A DNA stretch of 64,000 bases from Bacteroidota bacterium (lineage in GTDB: Bacteria; Bacteroidota; Bacteroidia; AKYH767-A; OLB10): NCBI GenBank assembly GCA_023251535.1, contig JAHEYP010000008.1, positions 36,519-100,518 of the forward strand, in the 5' to 3' direction. The notes beneath the pieces are model-generated. The model saw nothing but the letters and a program-made list of their open reading frames with translations. It did no database searches and was not told where the DNA came from. Position 1 is the first letter of the stretch. Each line of letters opens with the position of its first letter. Below are positions 46,498 to 56,688 of this stretch, piece by piece. A program made the position numbers and the translations under genes.

Positions 46498-48051
46498 ATG
46501 AGAAAAAACCAAAAACATTTAATTTACATATTGGCATCGGTGATGCTGATGGTATCTGCTTGTAGTAAAGAATCAAGCAATTCGGGAAATGGCGATACTG
46601 CTTCGGTTCTCGAGCAAAAATCTACTTTACAACAAGTTCCTTCCGGGAGTCCGATCGACGAAGTCACGTTGAATAAAGCGGTTATAAAAACGCTTGAAAA
46701 TACAGGTGATTTTAAATGGACCAATGCCGACTTAAAAACGCTTTGGAGTGCGCTTCAGTACAATGACCATAGCTTAGCAATCGGTTATGCTCCAGCTAAT
46801 GCAGGAGACATCAGCAGTAAACTAGGTTCTATCAATATTGCCACAGGTTCATTCAGAAAAGTACATGATGCGTTAATTGAGTACATTGTTAATGAAGCGA
46901 ACAAAACCGCAGCGACACCAATTACATGGCAGCAAATTGTTATCGAAGATGATGCAACATTACCAATACTAACGGTACGCCTTACCGATAAAAATGTGCT
47001 TACTGCCTTAAGCAATCTTAAAAACGTTCGCTATCTAGAACCAATCGATTTCTGGCCGGGAGATGGAAACAGATCTTCTTCGGGATGTTCTGGTTCTACT
47101 TATGGCATTAATACATTTGACTATACGAATATCACTCCCGCAGCTAAACTGCCATGGAATTACAATAACATCACTGTACCAAGTGCATGGAGTACTGCTC
47201 AAGGACAAGGTATCACGGTTGGTGTAATTGATGCTGGCATTAGCAGCGGACAACCTCTATTAGGATCATCTTTTAATGATGGTGCATCGTCTGTAGGAAG
47301 AACAATCCAAGTAGATTATACAATGGGTGGAAGTGGGTATTCAACTTGTACACACGGAACGAGTATGTGTGGAGCAGCGGTTGGCCCGCGTAACGGACAA
47401 AATGCTACTACAGGAGTTGCTTATAAATCGAATTTATATTTTATCCGTGCTGCAGATGATGTGGTATTAGATGCCTCGGTTGAAATCACAGGAGTAAAAA
47501 ATGCTATGGTACGCATGGGTGATCGTGCCGACGTAAAAGTAATTAGCATGAGTATGGGAACACCATTCGGAAGTAGTGTACTTAAAGACGGTGTTGATTA
47601 CGCTTATAACAAAGGTAAATTAGTATTGGCGGCTGCTGGAACATCTTACAGCTGGACAAGCTGGTGGGGAGTGATTTATCCTGCAGCATATTCATCATGC
47701 GTAGCAGTTACAGGAGTTAATGAAAGCAGTTCTACTTGCAGCGATTGTCATGATGGCTCTCAAGTGTTGTTAACTGTTCCGATGGAAAGAAATGGCAACA
47801 CCTCTAGAAATTCATTATCGCTAGCACCTTCAGGAGTTAACCCAACTTATATTGGAGGTAGCTCAATTGCTACTTCAACTACTGCGGGCGTTGCTGCCTT
47901 GGTGTGGAGCGCAAGACCTAATATGACTAGAGCGCAACTTTTAACCTGCCTTACAAATACTGCGCAATATTATCCTACAAGAAATAGCAGCCGCGGTTAC
48001 GGAAATATTAACGCCAACGCCGCTGTGAATTACGCGATAAGTCATTATTAA
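46498..48051 (+). CDS. S8 subtilisin-like serine protease, lipoprotein
   Basis: VGVIDAGISSG, CTHGTSMCGAAVG, GGSSIATSTTAGVAALVWS triad motifs; lipobox-like LMVSACSK. Confidence 0.88.
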   Translation: MRKNQKHLIYILASVMLMVSACSKESSNSGNGDTASVLEQKSTLQQVPSGSPIDEVTLNKAVIKTLENTGDFKWTNADLKTLWSALQYNDHSLAIGYAPANAGDISSKLGSINIATGSFRKVHDALIEYIVNEANKTAATPITWQQIVIEDDATLPILTVRLTDKNVLTALSNLKNVRYLEPIDFWPGDGNRSSSGCSGSTYGINTFDYTNITPAAKLPWNYNNITVPSAWSTAQGQGITVGVIDAGISSGQPLLGSSFNDGASSVGRTIQVDYTMGGSGYSTCTHGTSMCGAAVGPRNGQNATTGVAYKSNLYFIRAADDVVLDASVEITGVKNAMVRMGDRADVKVISMSMGTPFGSSVLKDGVDYAYNKGKLVLAAAGTSYSWTSWWGVIYPAAYSSCVAVTGVNESSSTCSDCHDGSQVLLTVPMERNGNTSRNSLSLAPSGVNPTYIGGSSIATSTTAGVAALVWSARPNMTRAQLLTCLTNTAQYYPTRNSSRGYGNINANAAVNYAISHY

Positions 48052-48670: not shown

Positions 48671-50863
48671 TTATTTTTTTGCAAAGGTAACTACCGAAGT
48701 ATGCATATTTAATGAATTTGCTGTATAATATTGAATACGTGCGCAATACATTCCCGACACAAGTCTACTTACATCAATAGAATTATCGTTTTTAATTCCA
48801 CCTAATACAACTCTTCCTGTTAAATCAGTTATGTCAACTGAATTAATTTTAATTTCATCTGAATTTATTAGCTGCAATTTCTCTTCTACAGGATTAGGTT
48901 GCACTTTGAATTTCACATAGCCCAATTGACTTAATCCTACAGAAACATCTAAAATAGAAACTACAGTATTTGTTTGTACAGCAGGATTAAAATCGAAATA
49001 AATATCAGCACGGTTACTGATCAAATACGGACTTATTGGCAGGTAAAGCTCCGGTTTGATTTTGTATTTCACATAACCATGACTTAAAGGTTCATTGATA
49101 TTACTGTCAGGCAATAATATATTATCGAAATAAAATCTCAATGTATGTTGCCCACTTAGATCATAATGACAAGGATGCGAAGAACCTAACATTTCAAAAG
49201 TTGAAGGAATTAAATGTTGATCAAGTGAATCAACTACAACAATATTAAATGCAGTATCCGTTCCTGTATTTTGAAAGTAGATGGTATAGTTCATTGCTGT
49301 ATCTACATCCATGAAATAATAATTATTCGGATCATTATGTGGCGTAACAATTATTTCATTCGGATCAAAGCTTCCTGTAACCACTCTAGTATCACTGCTA
49401 ATATTATTGGCACTATTCTCGTCGTTAACAACACCCGACAAAGTAACACTCGTTCCAATACTAGTACCAATTAAACTAGGGTTTGCAGGAACACTATATG
49501 TTAATACCAGCGAATAACCTGAATGAGCTGCTATCATTGGCAATTGAATTTGAATTTCATGCGATGAAATCACCGTATAAGGTAACGGGCAATTAATCAG
49601 AGTCAATTGCGAATCATACATAACATTTATAACCGGACTTAAAGAATCAGCATAAGATTTATTATCAAAATAAACATAATCGTAATGATCAAATCCAGGA
49701 CGAATCGGTCCCATTGCAACACTAACAGCTGCGTCTATGTGCACTTTTATAGTATCACCTAAAACGATATTACTGATCGTGTCGTTACTTGCACTTAAAA
49801 CTAATCCGGATTGAGTACACACAGGCTCTAATTCAGCATTTCCTAAAGAACGCACTTGATAAGTTCCATACGGAAGGTTTATCTTAAAATGTCCGGATGC
49901 ATTGGCTGTGGCATAATAATTTCCTGGTGTTACCTCTACAATTTGATTAGAAACATATTGTTCATTTGTATCAATTAAACAATTGCTAATCGAATCGAGA
50001 ATTACATCACCTTCTATCACTCCACAATTATTCCCAAGACTTGGAACAACTACAGTAAAAATGGAATCACATGTATTAGCTCCCACCTGCGAAATTTTAA
50101 GCGTATACGTTCCTGGTAACAAATTTTTTAATTCAGTATAATTCGAATTTCCCCAACCAGCATTTGAGTTAGTAGGACCAGTACAAGTGACTGTATTATA
50201 TGCCCAACCACCGAGTACTGAATATAGCTCGATTTTACCTATCCCTTGTCCTTGACAAGATGGGTAAATTTTTAAACTATCGAGGTAATTGCCATTGGAA
50301 ACCGGAATATTACTTGACATAGCAGTTCCTTGACATCCAGAAGCATCAGTAAATGTTACTGATACTTGGGCGGAAGCACACACGTCGGGCACAGCCCAAT
50401 AATTTGCACTCTGATCAAAATAATATCCACTTCCTGCTCCTGAATATGAAGTGATTGTTATAGGTGGAACAGCATTAGAATTAGCCGTATTCAAATAAAC
50501 TATTCCATCACATTGGTGAGGACAGGGAAATCCTACAATAGAACCAAACATAGTAGGACTAAAACCCAATGTCGCACCCTGGATTGAATTTGCAGAAGTC
50601 AACAAAACGGAAGCGGTACCAGTAGTACCCATTGCATCTGTAATACTAACGGTATAATTCCCGGGCAACAAACCAGCAATAGTACCTGTAGTAGCTCCTG
50701 TATTCCATTGATAAGTATAAGGAGAAAACCCTCCTGTAAAATATGCAGAAAGTTGTCCGTTGGCTTGGCCACAACTTGGATTTTGCACAACTGATATACC
50801 CGCACCTGCGAATGATAGCATTGGAAAAAATAATACTATTATCAGTAGATTTTTTAGTTTCAT
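48671..50863 (-). CDS. T9SS surface protein, paralog A (SprB-repeat head, DUF7619-like domain, sorting tail)
   Basis: SprB-like PYTYQWNTGATTGTIAGLLPGNYTVSITDAMG; FDPNEIIVTPHNDPNNYYF; FKVQPNPVEEKLQLI...GMYCARI. Confidence 0.85.
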   Translation of the reverse strand: MKLKNLLIIVLFFPMLSFAGAGISVVQNPSCGQANGQLSAYFTGGFSPYTYQWNTGATTGTIAGLLPGNYTVSITDAMGTTGTASVLLTSANSIQGATLGFSPTMFGSIVGFPCPHQCDGIVYLNTANSNAVPPITITSYSGAGSGYYFDQSANYWAVPDVCASAQVSVTFTDASGCQGTAMSSNIPVSNGNYLDSLKIYPSCQGQGIGKIELYSVLGGWAYNTVTCTGPTNSNAGWGNSNYTELKNLLPGTYTLKISQVGANTCDSIFTVVVPSLGNNCGVIEGDVILDSISNCLIDTNEQYVSNQIVEVTPGNYYATANASGHFKINLPYGTYQVRSLGNAELEPVCTQSGLVLSASNDTISNIVLGDTIKVHIDAAVSVAMGPIRPGFDHYDYVYFDNKSYADSLSPVINVMYDSQLTLINCPLPYTVISSHEIQIQLPMIAAHSGYSLVLTYSVPANPSLIGTSIGTSVTLSGVVNDENSANNISSDTRVVTGSFDPNEIIVTPHNDPNNYYFMDVDTAMNYTIYFQNTGTDTAFNIVVVDSLDQHLIPSTFEMLGSSHPCHYDLSGQHTLRFYFDNILLPDSNINEPLSHGYVKYKIKPELYLPISPYLISNRADIYFDFNPAVQTNTVVSILDVSVGLSQLGYVKFKVQPNPVEEKLQLINSDEIKINSVDITDLTGRVVLGGIKNDNSIDVSRLVSGMYCARIQYYTANSLNMHTSVVTFAKK

Positions 50864-50926
50864 ATTTTACTTTTTTATCAAATGAAATGAATCAAAATTT
50901 ATTTGTGTCTCGCTAATTGATCGAAT

Positions 50927-53110
50927 TTATTTTTTAACGATCATTATATTCGCATAATGATCTTGTTTACTACTTAGCGATTGGTATTTTATTTTCAAAT
51001 TATACACCCCAGGATTTAGCATCCCTACATAAACATCTTTTGCATTGGACAAATTGTCGAAAACAACCCTCCCTTGAACATCATAAATCGTTGTTGATTG
51101 CAAATCAATTTCAGCAGAACTTACAAGATGCACTTTATCTTCTACCGGATTCGGCTGCACTTTAAATTGAACATCGCTTAGCTCATTTAATCCAACAGAA
51201 ACAACCATGGTAGACACAACAGTATTTGTTTGTACTGCAGGATTAAAATCGAAATAAATATCAGCACGGTTACTGATCAAATACGGATTTATAGGCAGGT
51301 AAAGCTCTGGTTTGATTTTGTATTTCACATAACCATGACTCATTGGTTCATTGATATTACTATCGGGCAGTAAAATATTATCGAAGTAAAACTTTAAAGT
51401 ATGCTGACCTGAAATATCATAACGACAAGGATGTGATGACCCTAACATTTCAAATGTTGAAGGAATTAAATGCTGATCAAGTGAATCAACTACAACAATA
51501 TTAAATGCAGTATCCGTTCCTGTATTTTGAAAATAGATGGTATAGTTCATTGCTGTATCTATATCCATGAAATAGTAATTATTTGGATCGTTGCGTGGCG
51601 ATACAATTATTTCATTCGGATCAAAGCTTCCAGTAACAATCCTTGAATCAACTGAATAATTATTTGCACTTATCTCATCATTTGCAACTCCTGATAATGT
51701 GGCCGTTGACGACAATAAAAATCCTAAGATACCAGTTGGTGTATAATAACCAATTGATATAGCATATCCCTGACGTGCAGCAATCATCGGCAGTTGAAAT
51801 TGGATTTCATTTGCTGAAACCACAGTATAGGGTATTGATGGATTAATTAATGTAAGAAGCGGATCATATGTTATATTAACTACTGGATTCAATGAATCAG
51901 ACCATGAATTATTGGCAACATAAATATAATCGTAATGATCAAATCCCGGACGAATAGGTCCCATAGTTATACTAACGGATGCGTCTATGTGAATTTTAAT
52001 GGTGTCACCTAAAACAACATTACTAATGGTATCATTACTTGCACTTAATGTTAAACCTCCTTGTGTACAAACAGGCTCTAACCCAAGTGTACCGACAGAT
52101 CTGAATTGGTAAGTTCCATAAGGAAGAAATGATTTAAAATGTCCAGATGCATTTGTAGTTGTATAGAAATTCCCAGGCGTTATCTCTACAACTTGTCCTG
52201 CAACCGGTTGCTCATTCACATCAATTGTACAATTATAAAGTGAATCCATTATAACATCGCCCTCAATCATGCCACAATTATTACCCATACTAGGAACTAC
52301 AACTGTAAAAGTCGAATCGCAAATAACAGCACCCGGTTGAGTTGCTGTTATTGTATAAACTCCCGGTAATAAATTTGCAAATTCAGTGTAAGGGTATTGT
52401 TGAGATAAAGTTTGAGAAAATGAAGGACCAGAACATTGAACAGGATACATGTAGAGCCCCTGCAACTCAGAATACAATCTTATTTTGCCAACTGCTTGGG
52501 TTTGACATGAAGGAAATACATTTATACTATCAATATAATTCCCTTCAGGAAATGGTTGAGAAGGATATGTGGATCCAGGGCAACCGGTATCATCAACAAA
52601 ATCAACACTAATCCATTCGTTTGCACATACTCCTTCAACAACCATTGAGTTAGACGATGAATCGAAAGTTAAATAAGCTGAAGTACCACCCGAAACAAAA
52701 CTAGGGTTAATAGGTAATGTTGCATCAGAAATATCCGTATTGAAATATAAAATCCCATTACATTGGTGAGGGCAAGGGAAACCAACCACTGTACCAAAGG
52801 CTCCATTGACAAAACTAAGATCAACACCAGTGACAAAGGGAACTAACGCCACAGTTGCTGATGCACTATCTAAAGCACCATTAGCATCAGTTACATAAAC
52901 TGTATAAACCCCTGGCATTAGATCTGTAATATTCGAAGATGTTTGGCCGTTGCTCCATTGATAAGTAAATGGCGATGCCCCTACAACATTTGTATTTATT
53001 TGACCCGTTGGGTTACCGCAGGAACTATTTTTTACAACTGAAATATTTATACCGCCCAAAGAAACTATGGGGATAAGCAATACAATAATTAGCATGAATT
53101 TTGCTTTCAT
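50927..53110 (-). CDS. T9SS surface protein, paralog B
   Basis: same architecture as paralog A; SprB-like PFTYQWSNGQTSSNITDLMPGVYTVYVTDANG; FKVQPNPVEDKVHLV. Confidence 0.87.
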   Translation of the reverse strand: MKAKFMLIIVLLIPIVSLGGINISVVKNSSCGNPTGQINTNVVGASPFTYQWSNGQTSSNITDLMPGVYTVYVTDANGALDSASATVALVPFVTGVDLSFVNGAFGTVVGFPCPHQCNGILYFNTDISDATLPINPSFVSGGTSAYLTFDSSSNSMVVEGVCANEWISVDFVDDTGCPGSTYPSQPFPEGNYIDSINVFPSCQTQAVGKIRLYSELQGLYMYPVQCSGPSFSQTLSQQYPYTEFANLLPGVYTITATQPGAVICDSTFTVVVPSMGNNCGMIEGDVIMDSLYNCTIDVNEQPVAGQVVEITPGNFYTTTNASGHFKSFLPYGTYQFRSVGTLGLEPVCTQGGLTLSASNDTISNVVLGDTIKIHIDASVSITMGPIRPGFDHYDYIYVANNSWSDSLNPVVNITYDPLLTLINPSIPYTVVSANEIQFQLPMIAARQGYAISIGYYTPTGILGFLLSSTATLSGVANDEISANNYSVDSRIVTGSFDPNEIIVSPRNDPNNYYFMDIDTAMNYTIYFQNTGTDTAFNIVVVDSLDQHLIPSTFEMLGSSHPCRYDISGQHTLKFYFDNILLPDSNINEPMSHGYVKYKIKPELYLPINPYLISNRADIYFDFNPAVQTNTVVSTMVVSVGLNELSDVQFKVQPNPVEDKVHLVSSAEIDLQSTTIYDVQGRVVFDNLSNAKDVYVGMLNPGVYNLKIKYQSLSSKQDHYANIMIVKK
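51627..52203. repeat. 577-bp tract identical to 53853-54429 (paralog B copy)
   Basis: manual base-by-base alignment at constant offset 2226; first mismatches at 51626/53852 and 52204/54430. Confidence 0.85.
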
Positions 53111-53152
53111 AACTTTTTCATTGTTTTTTTATGTATTCAAAATTTAGCACTT

Positions 53153-55345
53153 TCAATATTTCATAAATTGTATAACAGATGATTTAATATCTGAATTTCT
53201 AGCATAACTATAATTCACTCTTAATGAATACAATCCTGATGAAAAACTACGAACATCGATTGTATTATCAACAAGCTTTCCATCAAACATTACTTTTCCT
53301 AAAGCATCCACAATTGTTGCCGATACAATTCCAATTTCATCATTACAAAATAACACAATTTTTTCTCCTACCGGATTCGGCTGCACTTTAAATTTCTCAT
53401 CGCTTAGCTCATTCAATCCAACAGAAACAACCATTGTCGAAACAACAGTATTTGTTAGCACTGCAGGATTAAAATCGAAATAAATATCAGCACGGTTACT
53501 GATCAAATAGGGATTTATTGGCAGGTAAAGCTCTGGTTTGATTTTGTATTTCACATAACCATGGCTCATTGGTTCATTGATATTACTATCGGGCAGTAAA
53601 ATATTATCGAAGTAAAACTTTAAAGTATGCTGACCTGAAATATCATAACGACAAGGATGTGATGACCCTAACATTTCAAATGTAGAAGGAATCAAATGCT
53701 GATCAAGGGAATCAACTACAACAATATTAAATGCAGTATCTGTTCCTGTATTTTGAAAATAGATTGTATAGTTCATTGCTGTATCAATATCCATGAAATA
53801 ATAATTATTCGGATCGTTGCGTGGCGATACAATTATTTCATTCGGATCAAAACTTCCAGTAACAATCCTTGAATCAACTGAATAATTATTTGCACTTATC
53901 TCATCATTTGCAACTCCTGATAATGTGGCCGTTGACGACAATAAAAATCCTAAGATACCAGTTGGTGTATAATAACCAATTGATATAGCATATCCCTGAC
54001 GTGCAGCAATCATCGGCAGTTGAAATTGGATTTCATTTGCTGAAACCACAGTATAGGGTATTGATGGATTAATTAATGTAAGAAGCGGATCATATGTTAT
54101 ATTAACTACTGGATTCAATGAATCAGACCATGAATTATTGGCAACATAAATATAATCGTAATGATCAAATCCCGGACGAATAGGTCCCATAGTTATACTA
54201 ACGGATGCGTCTATGTGAATTTTAATGGTGTCACCTAAAACAACATTACTAATGGTATCATTACTTGCACTTAATGTTAAACCTCCTTGTGTACAAACAG
54301 GCTCTAACCCAAGTGTACCGACAGATCTGAATTGGTAAGTTCCATAAGGAAGAAATGATTTAAAATGTCCAGATGCATTTGTAGTTGTATAGAAATTCCC
54401 AGGCGTTATCTCTACAACTTGTCCTGCAATAGGTTGCTCATTCACATCAATTGTACAATTATAAAGTGAATCCATTATAACATCACCCTCAATCATGCCA
54501 CAGTTGTTGCCTAAATCTGGTAAAACGACATTAAAAGTAGAATCACATGGCCCCATTGATGAATTCCGCAAAACAGTAACATTGTATGTTCCAGGCAATA
54601 AGTTATCGAACGTAGTCGGCACTGTTCCTAACTGTAAAACAAGAGTACCTGATGGACCCGAAATAGTTACAGTATTTAAAATTGCTGAAGGACTTGCATT
54701 AAAAAATCTGATTTTCCCTGTTGCTTGCGATAAACAACTTGGAAATACATTCACACTGTCAATATAATAACTTGAACCTATCGCTGGCATTAATCCAGTC
54801 GTTCCCGGACATCCATTGGCATCTACAAATTGCACCTCAACGATATCACCTTCACAAACATTATCAACCACCCATTGATTTGTTCCATTGTCAAAGCTAA
54901 CTACATTAAAAGGGTTAGGGCTGCCGAAACCCAAACTGGCGGTTATAGGTAAGGTCGCATTTGAACTCTCTTCATGAACAAACATTCTTCCATTACATTG
55001 CTGAGGACAAGGAAAACCTACCAATTGTGTTACAGTTCCACTGAAATAAGAAAGATTTACTCCTGAAACAAAAGGCTGATCAGCAACAACCGTTGTCGCG
55101 CTATCTAATGTTCCATTTGCATCAGTTACATAAAGAGTATAGGTTCCAGGAAGTAAATGATCGATATATGGCATCGTTGATCCTGTGCTCCATTGATATG
55201 CAAAAGGAGCAATTCCTGTAACATACGCTTCGATTTTACCTGTTGGTGCTCCGCATGAACTATAAGAAGTTACACTGAGGTTAATACCCGCAAACGATAT
55301 AATAGGGAATAGAATAGCGATTAATAAAGTAGAAATTTTCTTCAT
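53153..55345 (-). CDS. T9SS surface protein, paralog C
   Basis: same architecture; SprB-like PFAYQWSTGSTMPYIDHLLPGTYTLYVTDANG; middle near-identical to paralog B; start MKKIST preferred. Confidence 0.87.
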   Translation of the reverse strand: MKKISTLLIAILFPIISFAGINLSVTSYSSCGAPTGKIEAYVTGIAPFAYQWSTGSTMPYIDHLLPGTYTLYVTDANGTLDSATTVVADQPFVSGVNLSYFSGTVTQLVGFPCPQQCNGRMFVHEESSNATLPITASLGFGSPNPFNVVSFDNGTNQWVVDNVCEGDIVEVQFVDANGCPGTTGLMPAIGSSYYIDSVNVFPSCLSQATGKIRFFNASPSAILNTVTISGPSGTLVLQLGTVPTTFDNLLPGTYNVTVLRNSSMGPCDSTFNVVLPDLGNNCGMIEGDVIMDSLYNCTIDVNEQPIAGQVVEITPGNFYTTTNASGHFKSFLPYGTYQFRSVGTLGLEPVCTQGGLTLSASNDTISNVVLGDTIKIHIDASVSITMGPIRPGFDHYDYIYVANNSWSDSLNPVVNITYDPLLTLINPSIPYTVVSANEIQFQLPMIAARQGYAISIGYYTPTGILGFLLSSTATLSGVANDEISANNYSVDSRIVTGSFDPNEIIVSPRNDPNNYYFMDIDTAMNYTIYFQNTGTDTAFNIVVVDSLDQHLIPSTFEMLGSSHPCRYDISGQHTLKFYFDNILLPDSNINEPMSHGYVKYKIKPELYLPINPYLISNRADIYFDFNPAVLTNTVVSTMVVSVGLNELSDEKFKVQPNPVGEKIVLFCNDEIGIVSATIVDALGKVMFDGKLVDNTIDVRSFSSGLYSLRVNYSYARNSDIKSSVIQFMKY
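53853..54429. repeat. 577-bp tract identical to 51627-52203 (paralog C copy)
   Basis: see 51627-52203. Confidence 0.85.
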
Positions 55346-55396: not shown

Positions 55397-55440
55397 AAGT
55401 CAAAAAAAATCCCGTCACTAAGGACGGGATCATATTTTAT
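55397..55440 (-). terminator. terminator-like hairpin
   Basis: aaaaatcccgtcactaaggacgggatcatattttat. Confidence 0.65.
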
Positions 55441-55455
55441 AGAATTTTAATTCTA

Positions 55456-56688
55456 TTAGTTCTTAAAAAGCCATGCATTCTGTTGAAAGCCGGCCTTGAT
55501 CGAAGATAGTTGCGCTTGCGCTTCTGTTTGTGAATTTCCAGTATATAAACTTACCATCCACATCCCCTTAGCATTCTTACCTATTACCGATGCTTTTAAG
55601 CCTTGCGCATTAGCTTCTGCAACATATTTATTTGCATTCTCTTCAACCGAGAAACATCCTCCGATGACATTATACTTACCTACAGATGTTGTAGAAGCTT
55701 CTTTAACTATCTCTGCCTTTTCATGCGCATCTGTTGCAGTATGTACTGCTTCTGCTGTCGACTTCGACTTCTTTTCAGAAGCTAGTATATCATTTGCTGC
55801 TGCATCTACTTCTTTGTCGAATGCTTGTTGCATCAACTTAGCCTTCGCATCTATTAATTGCTGATTTAATTCAGCTGTTAAAGTATTAGATGCCGAAGAA
55901 GAAGAAGAAGAAGAAGAAACTGTTGGTGTCTCTTCCTGCACGGGAACAGAACTTGTAGTAACGGTATCTATCGCAGTTGTTGAATCAACTGTTGCAGTAT
56001 CTTTTTCTACAAAATAACTGTAGTTCGTTGCTTTCTTTGCAGGATTAACATGCTCAGGAGCTGAAGATGATATATCAAAAGGTATTACACTTCCGAGGTT
56101 AGTATTTAACTTCTGAATAACATTCGGATTAAAAATAAGAATAGCTAATACTGCAGCTGCAGGAACTAATTCTAATAACCTCCATCCTTGTCGCTTTTTA
56201 GGAGCGACTTCAGACTGATGATTTTCTTTTTTGCTTACCTTTTTCAGAGGTGAAGTAGTAATTGCTTCACGCTTAATTGCAGGAGAATGAACCGTTGTTA
56301 ATCCAAACGAATCCATTAAGAAATTCGTTGATGCATCTGGCTCAAATTGTATATGTTGTTCAAGATCTAATGAAATCGATCCGACTTGCTGAATTTCAAT
56401 TTTTTCTCCTAATGCTAATAAACGAAATACGTCATCAACATAAAGTTGAATTGCATTTACCGCTTCTTGATATGAAACACCTCCGTTTCTACTCACATAA
56501 TGAGCCAATAATCCGTCGTTTACACGAAGACTAGCGTTGAAGGCAATTTTCTTTGTCGGCGGAGAGAAAGTATGTTGTGCTGGATTCAAAAATGCACTAC
56601 GCGTATTGGCCACGAATCCTCCCAAACCGGGTATGATTACGCAGTCATTCGTATATAGTAATTCGCTTATGTAATGGTCTATGCGCAC
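55456..56688 (-). CDS. HU-CCDC81-like + SPOR domain protein
   Basis: N-terminal MRIDHYISELLYTNDCVIIPGLGGFVANTRSA; single TM; C-terminal SPOR-like GKYNVIGGCFSVEENANKYVAEANAQGLKASVI. Confidence 0.82.
   Translation of the reverse strand: MRIDHYISELLYTNDCVIIPGLGGFVANTRSAFLNPAQHTFSPPTKKIAFNASLRVNDGLLAHYVSRNGGVSYQEAVNAIQLYVDDVFRLLALGEKIEIQQVGSISLDLEQHIQFEPDASTNFLMDSFGLTTVHSPAIKREAITTSPLKKVSKKENHQSEVAPKKRQGWRLLELVPAAAVLAILIFNPNVIQKLNTNLGSVIPFDISSSAPEHVNPAKKATNYSYFVEKDTATVDSTTAIDTVTTSSVPVQEETPTVSSSSSSSSASNTLTAELNQQLIDAKAKLMQQAFDKEVDAAANDILASEKKSKSTAEAVHTATDAHEKAEIVKEASTTSVGKYNVIGGCFSVEENANKYVAEANAQGLKASVIGKNAKGMWMVSLYTGNSQTEAQAQLSSIKAGFQQNAWLFKN
55895..55918. repeat. (GAA)8 trinucleotide tract encoding a Ser run
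   Basis: eight uninterrupted gaa units; part of SSSSSSSS in the minus-strand CDS. Confidence 0.9.

Follow-up and report, generated by a model that had tools for sequence, protein, structure and literature searches.

Genes A, B and C, three tandem paralogs within the 64,000-nucleotide stretch of Bacteroidota DNA analysed here (the window), very probably form an old array of T9SS DUF7619 proteins whose putative stalk is in concerted evolution by ectopic gene conversion. A long tract shared by B and C, the breakpoints at its edges, a strong contrast in silent-site divergence and the recurrence of the pattern in further arrays were observed directly. These observations support the proposal of a first-pass annotation of the locus that ectopic gene conversion homogenised the core of the genes while heads and tails remained diverged.

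Results

The source genome is a 3.66-Mb draft in 73 contigs with a completeness of 93%, in which the rRNA search found one 16S copy; the window lies within contig 6. Genes A (48671-50863, 730 aa), B (50927-53110, 727 aa) and C (53153-55345, 730 aa) are encoded on the minus strand and have a common architecture of signal peptide, head of ~275 residues, CarboxypepD_reg-like domain, middle domain, DUF7619 and Por_Secre_tail. For gene C, the ATG at 55345 is more probably the start codon than the upstream TTG chosen by the ORF finder. The intergenic gaps measure 42 bp between C and B and 63 bp between B and A, and no terminator-like hairpin was reported in either of them. Such a hairpin is located on the minus strand at 55408..55431, between C and the gene that precedes it (55456-56688). 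Given the short gaps and a hairpin that sits upstream of C and after the preceding gene, the arrangement of the locus suggests that the genes probably constitute a single transcription unit C-B-A, with C as first and A as last gene. Around the three genes, inverted repeats of at least 40 bp were absent and there was no sign of an invertible switch. A gene at 46498-48051, near the array but on the other strand, was identified by eye as encoding a predicted secreted subtilase-like protease with a lipoprotein-like signal.

DUF7619 (PF24595) was detected with ~140 bits in each of the three proteins, at a cut-off of 27. Por_Secre_tail scored above the Pfam and NCBIfam (TIGR04183) cut-offs in all of them, in C barely above that of Pfam (27.2 vs 27 bits). 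The T9SS machinery is represented in the genome by the component searched for, a full-length SprA homologue (2690 bits). The label SprB, given to the genes in the first-pass annotation, has weak support: each protein has a single N-terminal SprB repeat, which exceeds the Pfam cut-off only in A, whereas an SprB adhesin would be recognised by several repeats above the cut-off. By their sequence, A, B and C are T9SS-sorted DUF7619 proteins rather than multi-repeat SprB adhesins. SprB-like giants are present elsewhere in the genome, on contigs C18 and C25, with open frames of 4736, 2975 and 2170 codons.

DUF7619 is a predicted isopeptide-bond domain with a Lys/Asp/Asn triad (PMC12617251). With the triad positions placed by the spacing given in that study, the triad appeared incomplete in A, B and C: Asp542 and Asn614 are kept, and the Lys position is occupied by Ile501. 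Among 136 motif-matched proteins from the window and the loci L058-L150, the site of the triad lysine is Lys in 98 and Ile in 38, with no third residue.

The 577 bp at 51627..52203 in B (minus strand; residues ~303-495, that is late D4, D5 and the start of DUF7619 in the domain numbering given below) and at 53853..54429 in C (minus strand) are identical. This match had been noticed before; it proved to be exact and maximal. In the assembly, the tract has two copies at 100% identity and one at 74%, the latter in gene A. A search of 60 relatives, with no close strain among them, returned nothing longer than a 31-bp match. The tract is part of a longer homogenised core on the minus strand, located at 51142..52276 in B (residues ~279-656) and, at an offset of +2226, at 53368..54502 in C. 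Beyond the 577 bp, the core of B and C is ~96% identical; the ~4% that differ amount to 25 mostly silent differences. Past the core edges, nucleotide identity falls abruptly to ~50%, as between old paralogues. The diverged head of B, with signal peptide and domains D1-D3, extends over 52286..53110 (minus strand) and corresponds to the heads of A (50024-50863) and C (54521-55345) on the same strand. The strong dissimilarity of the heads was evident at both levels, since B and C share ~50% of the amino acids there and over half of the silent codons differ.

Silent divergence was measured on codons that specify the same residue in both genes, a measure that depends somewhat on protein identity. 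A uniform synonymous divergence across B and C had been named in advance as evidence against conversion; instead, 0 of 188 such codons differ in the tract and 75 of 130 in the heads (Fisher P about 1e-37, as for all Fisher tests with codons taken as independent). Resolved by domain, silent B/C divergence is 30/48, 25/42 and 19/39 in the head, 5/69 in D4, 0/143 in D5, 16/138 in DUF7619 and 11/26 in the tail. Given the ~4% divergence of the remaining core, the lack of any difference over 577 bp has a probability of about 1e-10. In a permutation test, the tract was significant both gene-wide and within the core.

The AlphaFold model of B, computed with 50 sequences, reached a mean pLDDT of 84.8, compared to 40.8 with 3 sequences, and consists of seven consecutive beta domains. 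With limits read off the predicted strands, these are the head domains D1-D3 (residues 20-272), D4 (279-346), D5 (353-491), D6, which is DUF7619 (500-636), and the sorting tail (650-727). The homogenised core therefore spans D4-D6 and stops just within the tail; its edges at residues ~279 and ~656 coincide with the D3/D4 boundary and the beginning of the sorting tail. The profile search (8.4e-15, columns 42-274) and the search by fold both ranked Ig-like repeats of the Aureispira grappling hook protein GhpA (PDB 9flp and related) first. GhpA, like the proteins studied here, contains strings of Ig-like beta domains, but it is a filament protein of 5898 residues; the likeness is confined to local domains and the whole-chain TM-score is low. 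As these repeats are the closest neighbours in sequence and fold, the model can reasonably be read as a binding tip, the head, carried on a stalk, the core.

Compared with B and C, gene A shows strong silent divergence nearly throughout, except for two short patches in DUF7619. In the patch at 51458..51586 (minus strand, B residues ~509-551), all three genes are similar, with silent differences of 4/40 for A and B, 7/40 for A and C and 8/41 for B and C. The second patch, at 51209..51340 (minus strand, B residues ~591-634), gave 5/42, 7/41 and 7/43, respectively. In the segment between them (51341..51457, minus strand, B residues ~552-590), B equals C (0/37) and A differs (15/34 against B). The low A/B divergence in the patches is significant against this intervening value (P 0.001 for 4/40 and 0.003 for 5/42).

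The first-pass annotation had quoted short strings in which B agrees with A or departs from it, and all of them were found as placed: caagtgaatc at 49222 and 51478, gtatccgttcc at 49254 and 51510 vs gtatctgttcc at 53736, caaagcttcc at 49366 and 51622 vs caaaacttcc at 53848, and ttattcggatc at 49323 and 53805 vs tttggatc at 51582. The conclusion drawn from them, that B specifically is assembled from A-like and C-like segments, found no support when the sites were considered one by one. The distal core has 14 silent B/C differences; A matches B at 10 of these and C at 4, and the matches are not clustered (runs test P 0.71). Within both patches A, B and C are roughly equidistant. Such a scattered pattern would be expected of point changes following a three-way homogenisation, and it does not single out B. 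The B/C differences in DUF7619 are restricted to the regions where A resembles both genes (15/84 codons vs 0/37 where A differs; P 0.005), a distribution that plausibly reflects some exchange with A, or else with an allele outside the sample.

Further DUF7619 loci were gathered and neighbouring same-strand genes were compared; a single-query scan of genome contigs with B found no relative. DUF7619 genes are also present in records of Kordia, Bizionia and Aequorivita, where the stretches examined showed no array. The arrays were found through similarity to the core of A, B and C, and the pairs are non-independent. Of 23 tandem arrays, 13 were less divergent at silent sites in the middle, DUF7619 or tail than in the head at Bonferroni-corrected significance; the other 10 fell short of it. 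Five of these 10 (L060, L061, L063, L065 and L066) showed no clear homogenisation and had silent differences of ~42 to 61% in DUF7619, indicating that low silent divergence is no property of the domain as such. Exact runs outside the window reached 232 bp in L123, 185 bp in L064, 158 bp in L075 and 129 bp, at the N-terminal end, in L059.

Because the silent measure partly depends on protein identity, the controls were matched on it, and 65-80% DUF7619 identity was the only band with enough pairs of both kinds. Here, the median silent difference was 0.33 for genes of the same array, 0.49 for dispersed genes and 0.58 for genes of different genomes (dispersed vs same-array P 1.7e-4, with non-independent pairs). 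The comparison of L073 with L074 gave low silent divergence and was set apart from the dispersed control, since the two perhaps belong to one array. Both loci sit at the ends of contigs in the MAG ACE_BAC31, possibly as the halves of a DUF7619 array of about eight genes that was split by assembly.

The partner of a gene can change along its length. In L123, an array of three genes on a 1.2-Mb contig, genes 1 and 3 are matched in the middle, 2 and 3 in DUF7619 (0/50) and 1 and 2 in the tail (3/46). In L059, genes 3 and 4 are matched in the first 50 alignment columns (0/37), 1 and 4 in part of DUF7619 (5/48) and 2 and 3 at the DUF7619 end (9/49). Several of the neighbouring DUF7619 genes in L074, L075, L076 and L077 overlap as called by 1 to 137 bp, possibly due to translational coupling or to wrong start choice.

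Discussion

The findings are best accounted for by non-crossover homologous exchange between neighbouring copies, presumably RecA-dependent, that would repeatedly overwrite the conserved domains of the stalk. Both the heads (D1-D3) and the sorting tails may be too diverged to serve as substrate and thus escape. Conversion would then be limited to the segment in which conservation of the protein maintains recombinable similarity, and if conservation of the protein and identity of the DNA feed back on each other, the process could stay confined to the stalk; gene conversion of the RecA type is what we infer for the exchange. Antigenic variation by gene conversion follows a different scheme, with an expression site, silent cassettes and conversion of the exposed part. 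In the array, all three genes appear complete and intact, the exchanged portion is apparently the stalk and not the head, and the heads appear to be old.

A recent tandem duplication of one gene (B or C), after which recombination with foreign or other alleles supplied a new head and tail, would likewise yield an identical core with unlike ends, and arrays in other genomes do vary in copy number, from 2 to 6 genes. Such a history seems unlikely to us. Both head and tail would have to be replaced with breakpoints at domain edges, neither the tails nor the gaps between the genes (42 and 63 bp) are shared, and the three-way pattern of the distal core involves A too. In the searched set, moreover, the best two non-self matches of the B and C heads were array members, and the head of A matched B best and C third, after a protein of L098. 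With array members as mostly the closest matches, the heads are indicative of old divergence within the array and not of fresh imports.

An even smaller chance is given to an assembly artefact, in which similar but non-identical cores were merged and their perfect identity was exaggerated. The genome is a draft of 73 contigs, and 577 bp exceeds the length of short reads. However, B and C retain separate heads, tails and gaps as well as the 25 core differences, which establishes two genuine copies, and the core around the 577-bp tract is ~96% identical in any case. The window is free of N (count 0), and unrelated assemblies, one of them with the 1.2-Mb contig of L123, show the same pattern with shorter tracts. 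Selection on silent sites through codon use or mRNA structure might keep the DNA of the core alike without exchange, and DUF7619 is strongly conserved at the protein level. Yet 49-58% of the silent codons differ between dispersed and cross-genome paralogues at 65-80% DUF7619 identity, and A and B differ in 15/34 in the middle of the domain. These comparisons largely refute silent-site selection and leave it highly improbable.

With ectopic gene conversion of the stalk, the large DUF7619 family, almost unstudied with one paper in the literature searched, joins a short list of bacterial surface systems in which intra-cluster gene conversion is clear; the pattern is repeated in many tandem DUF7619 arrays of Bacteroidota and related bacteria. 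Trees built on DUF7619 or on the sorting tails of such arrays depart from the gene history, and short-read assemblies may break within them. As a tentative and rather speculative extension, tandem DUF7619 arrays could be a widespread means of surface diversification in Bacteroidota, in which a homogenised stalk serves as permanent recombination platform and unlike heads and tails are kept and occasionally reassorted, providing a cell with several interchangeable tips on one kind of stalk. Occasional reassortment of heads and tails is suggested by the change of partner along the genes of L123 and L059.

A search of open-licence papers found no description of gene conversion in DUF7619 arrays. 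Among the closest parallels is the lpl cluster on vSa-alpha of Staphylococcus aureus (Tsuru and Kobayashi 2008), where, according to the account in PMC9484751, neighbours recombine in a conserved central stretch of ~130 nt with diverged flanks. In both systems, paralogues for surface proteins are arranged in tandem and have a conserved stretch that recombines, and a silent-site mosaic between neighbours, centred on a conserved block, was also found here. In that account, however, the lpl unit moves from mid-gene to mid-gene and copy number changes between strains, whereas in A, B and C the ends are unexchanged and ~1.1 kb is homogenised; lpl genes also encode lipoproteins in another phylum, and not T9SS proteins. 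The T7SS immunity arrays esaG, tsaI and tipC are likewise mosaic tandem paralogues with conserved and variable blocks, for which recombination was inferred from sequence (PMC9484751). They differ in being small immunity genes under toxin-driven selection, documented with strain data, whereas A, B and C have no known toxin partner. Like A, B and C, the gingipains and HagA of Porphyromonas gingivalis are surface proteins of Bacteroidota that use type IX secretion and are diversified by recombination, through rearrangement of adhesin domains and exchange of alleles (PMC5266723). In their case, alleles are mainly exchanged between strains and domains rearranged, in contrast to the homogenised stalk of the tandem DUF7619 arrays. 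The mechanism is thus known from other clusters of tandem paralogues, such as lpl and the T7SS immunity genes, and the survey of DUF7619 arrays is new.
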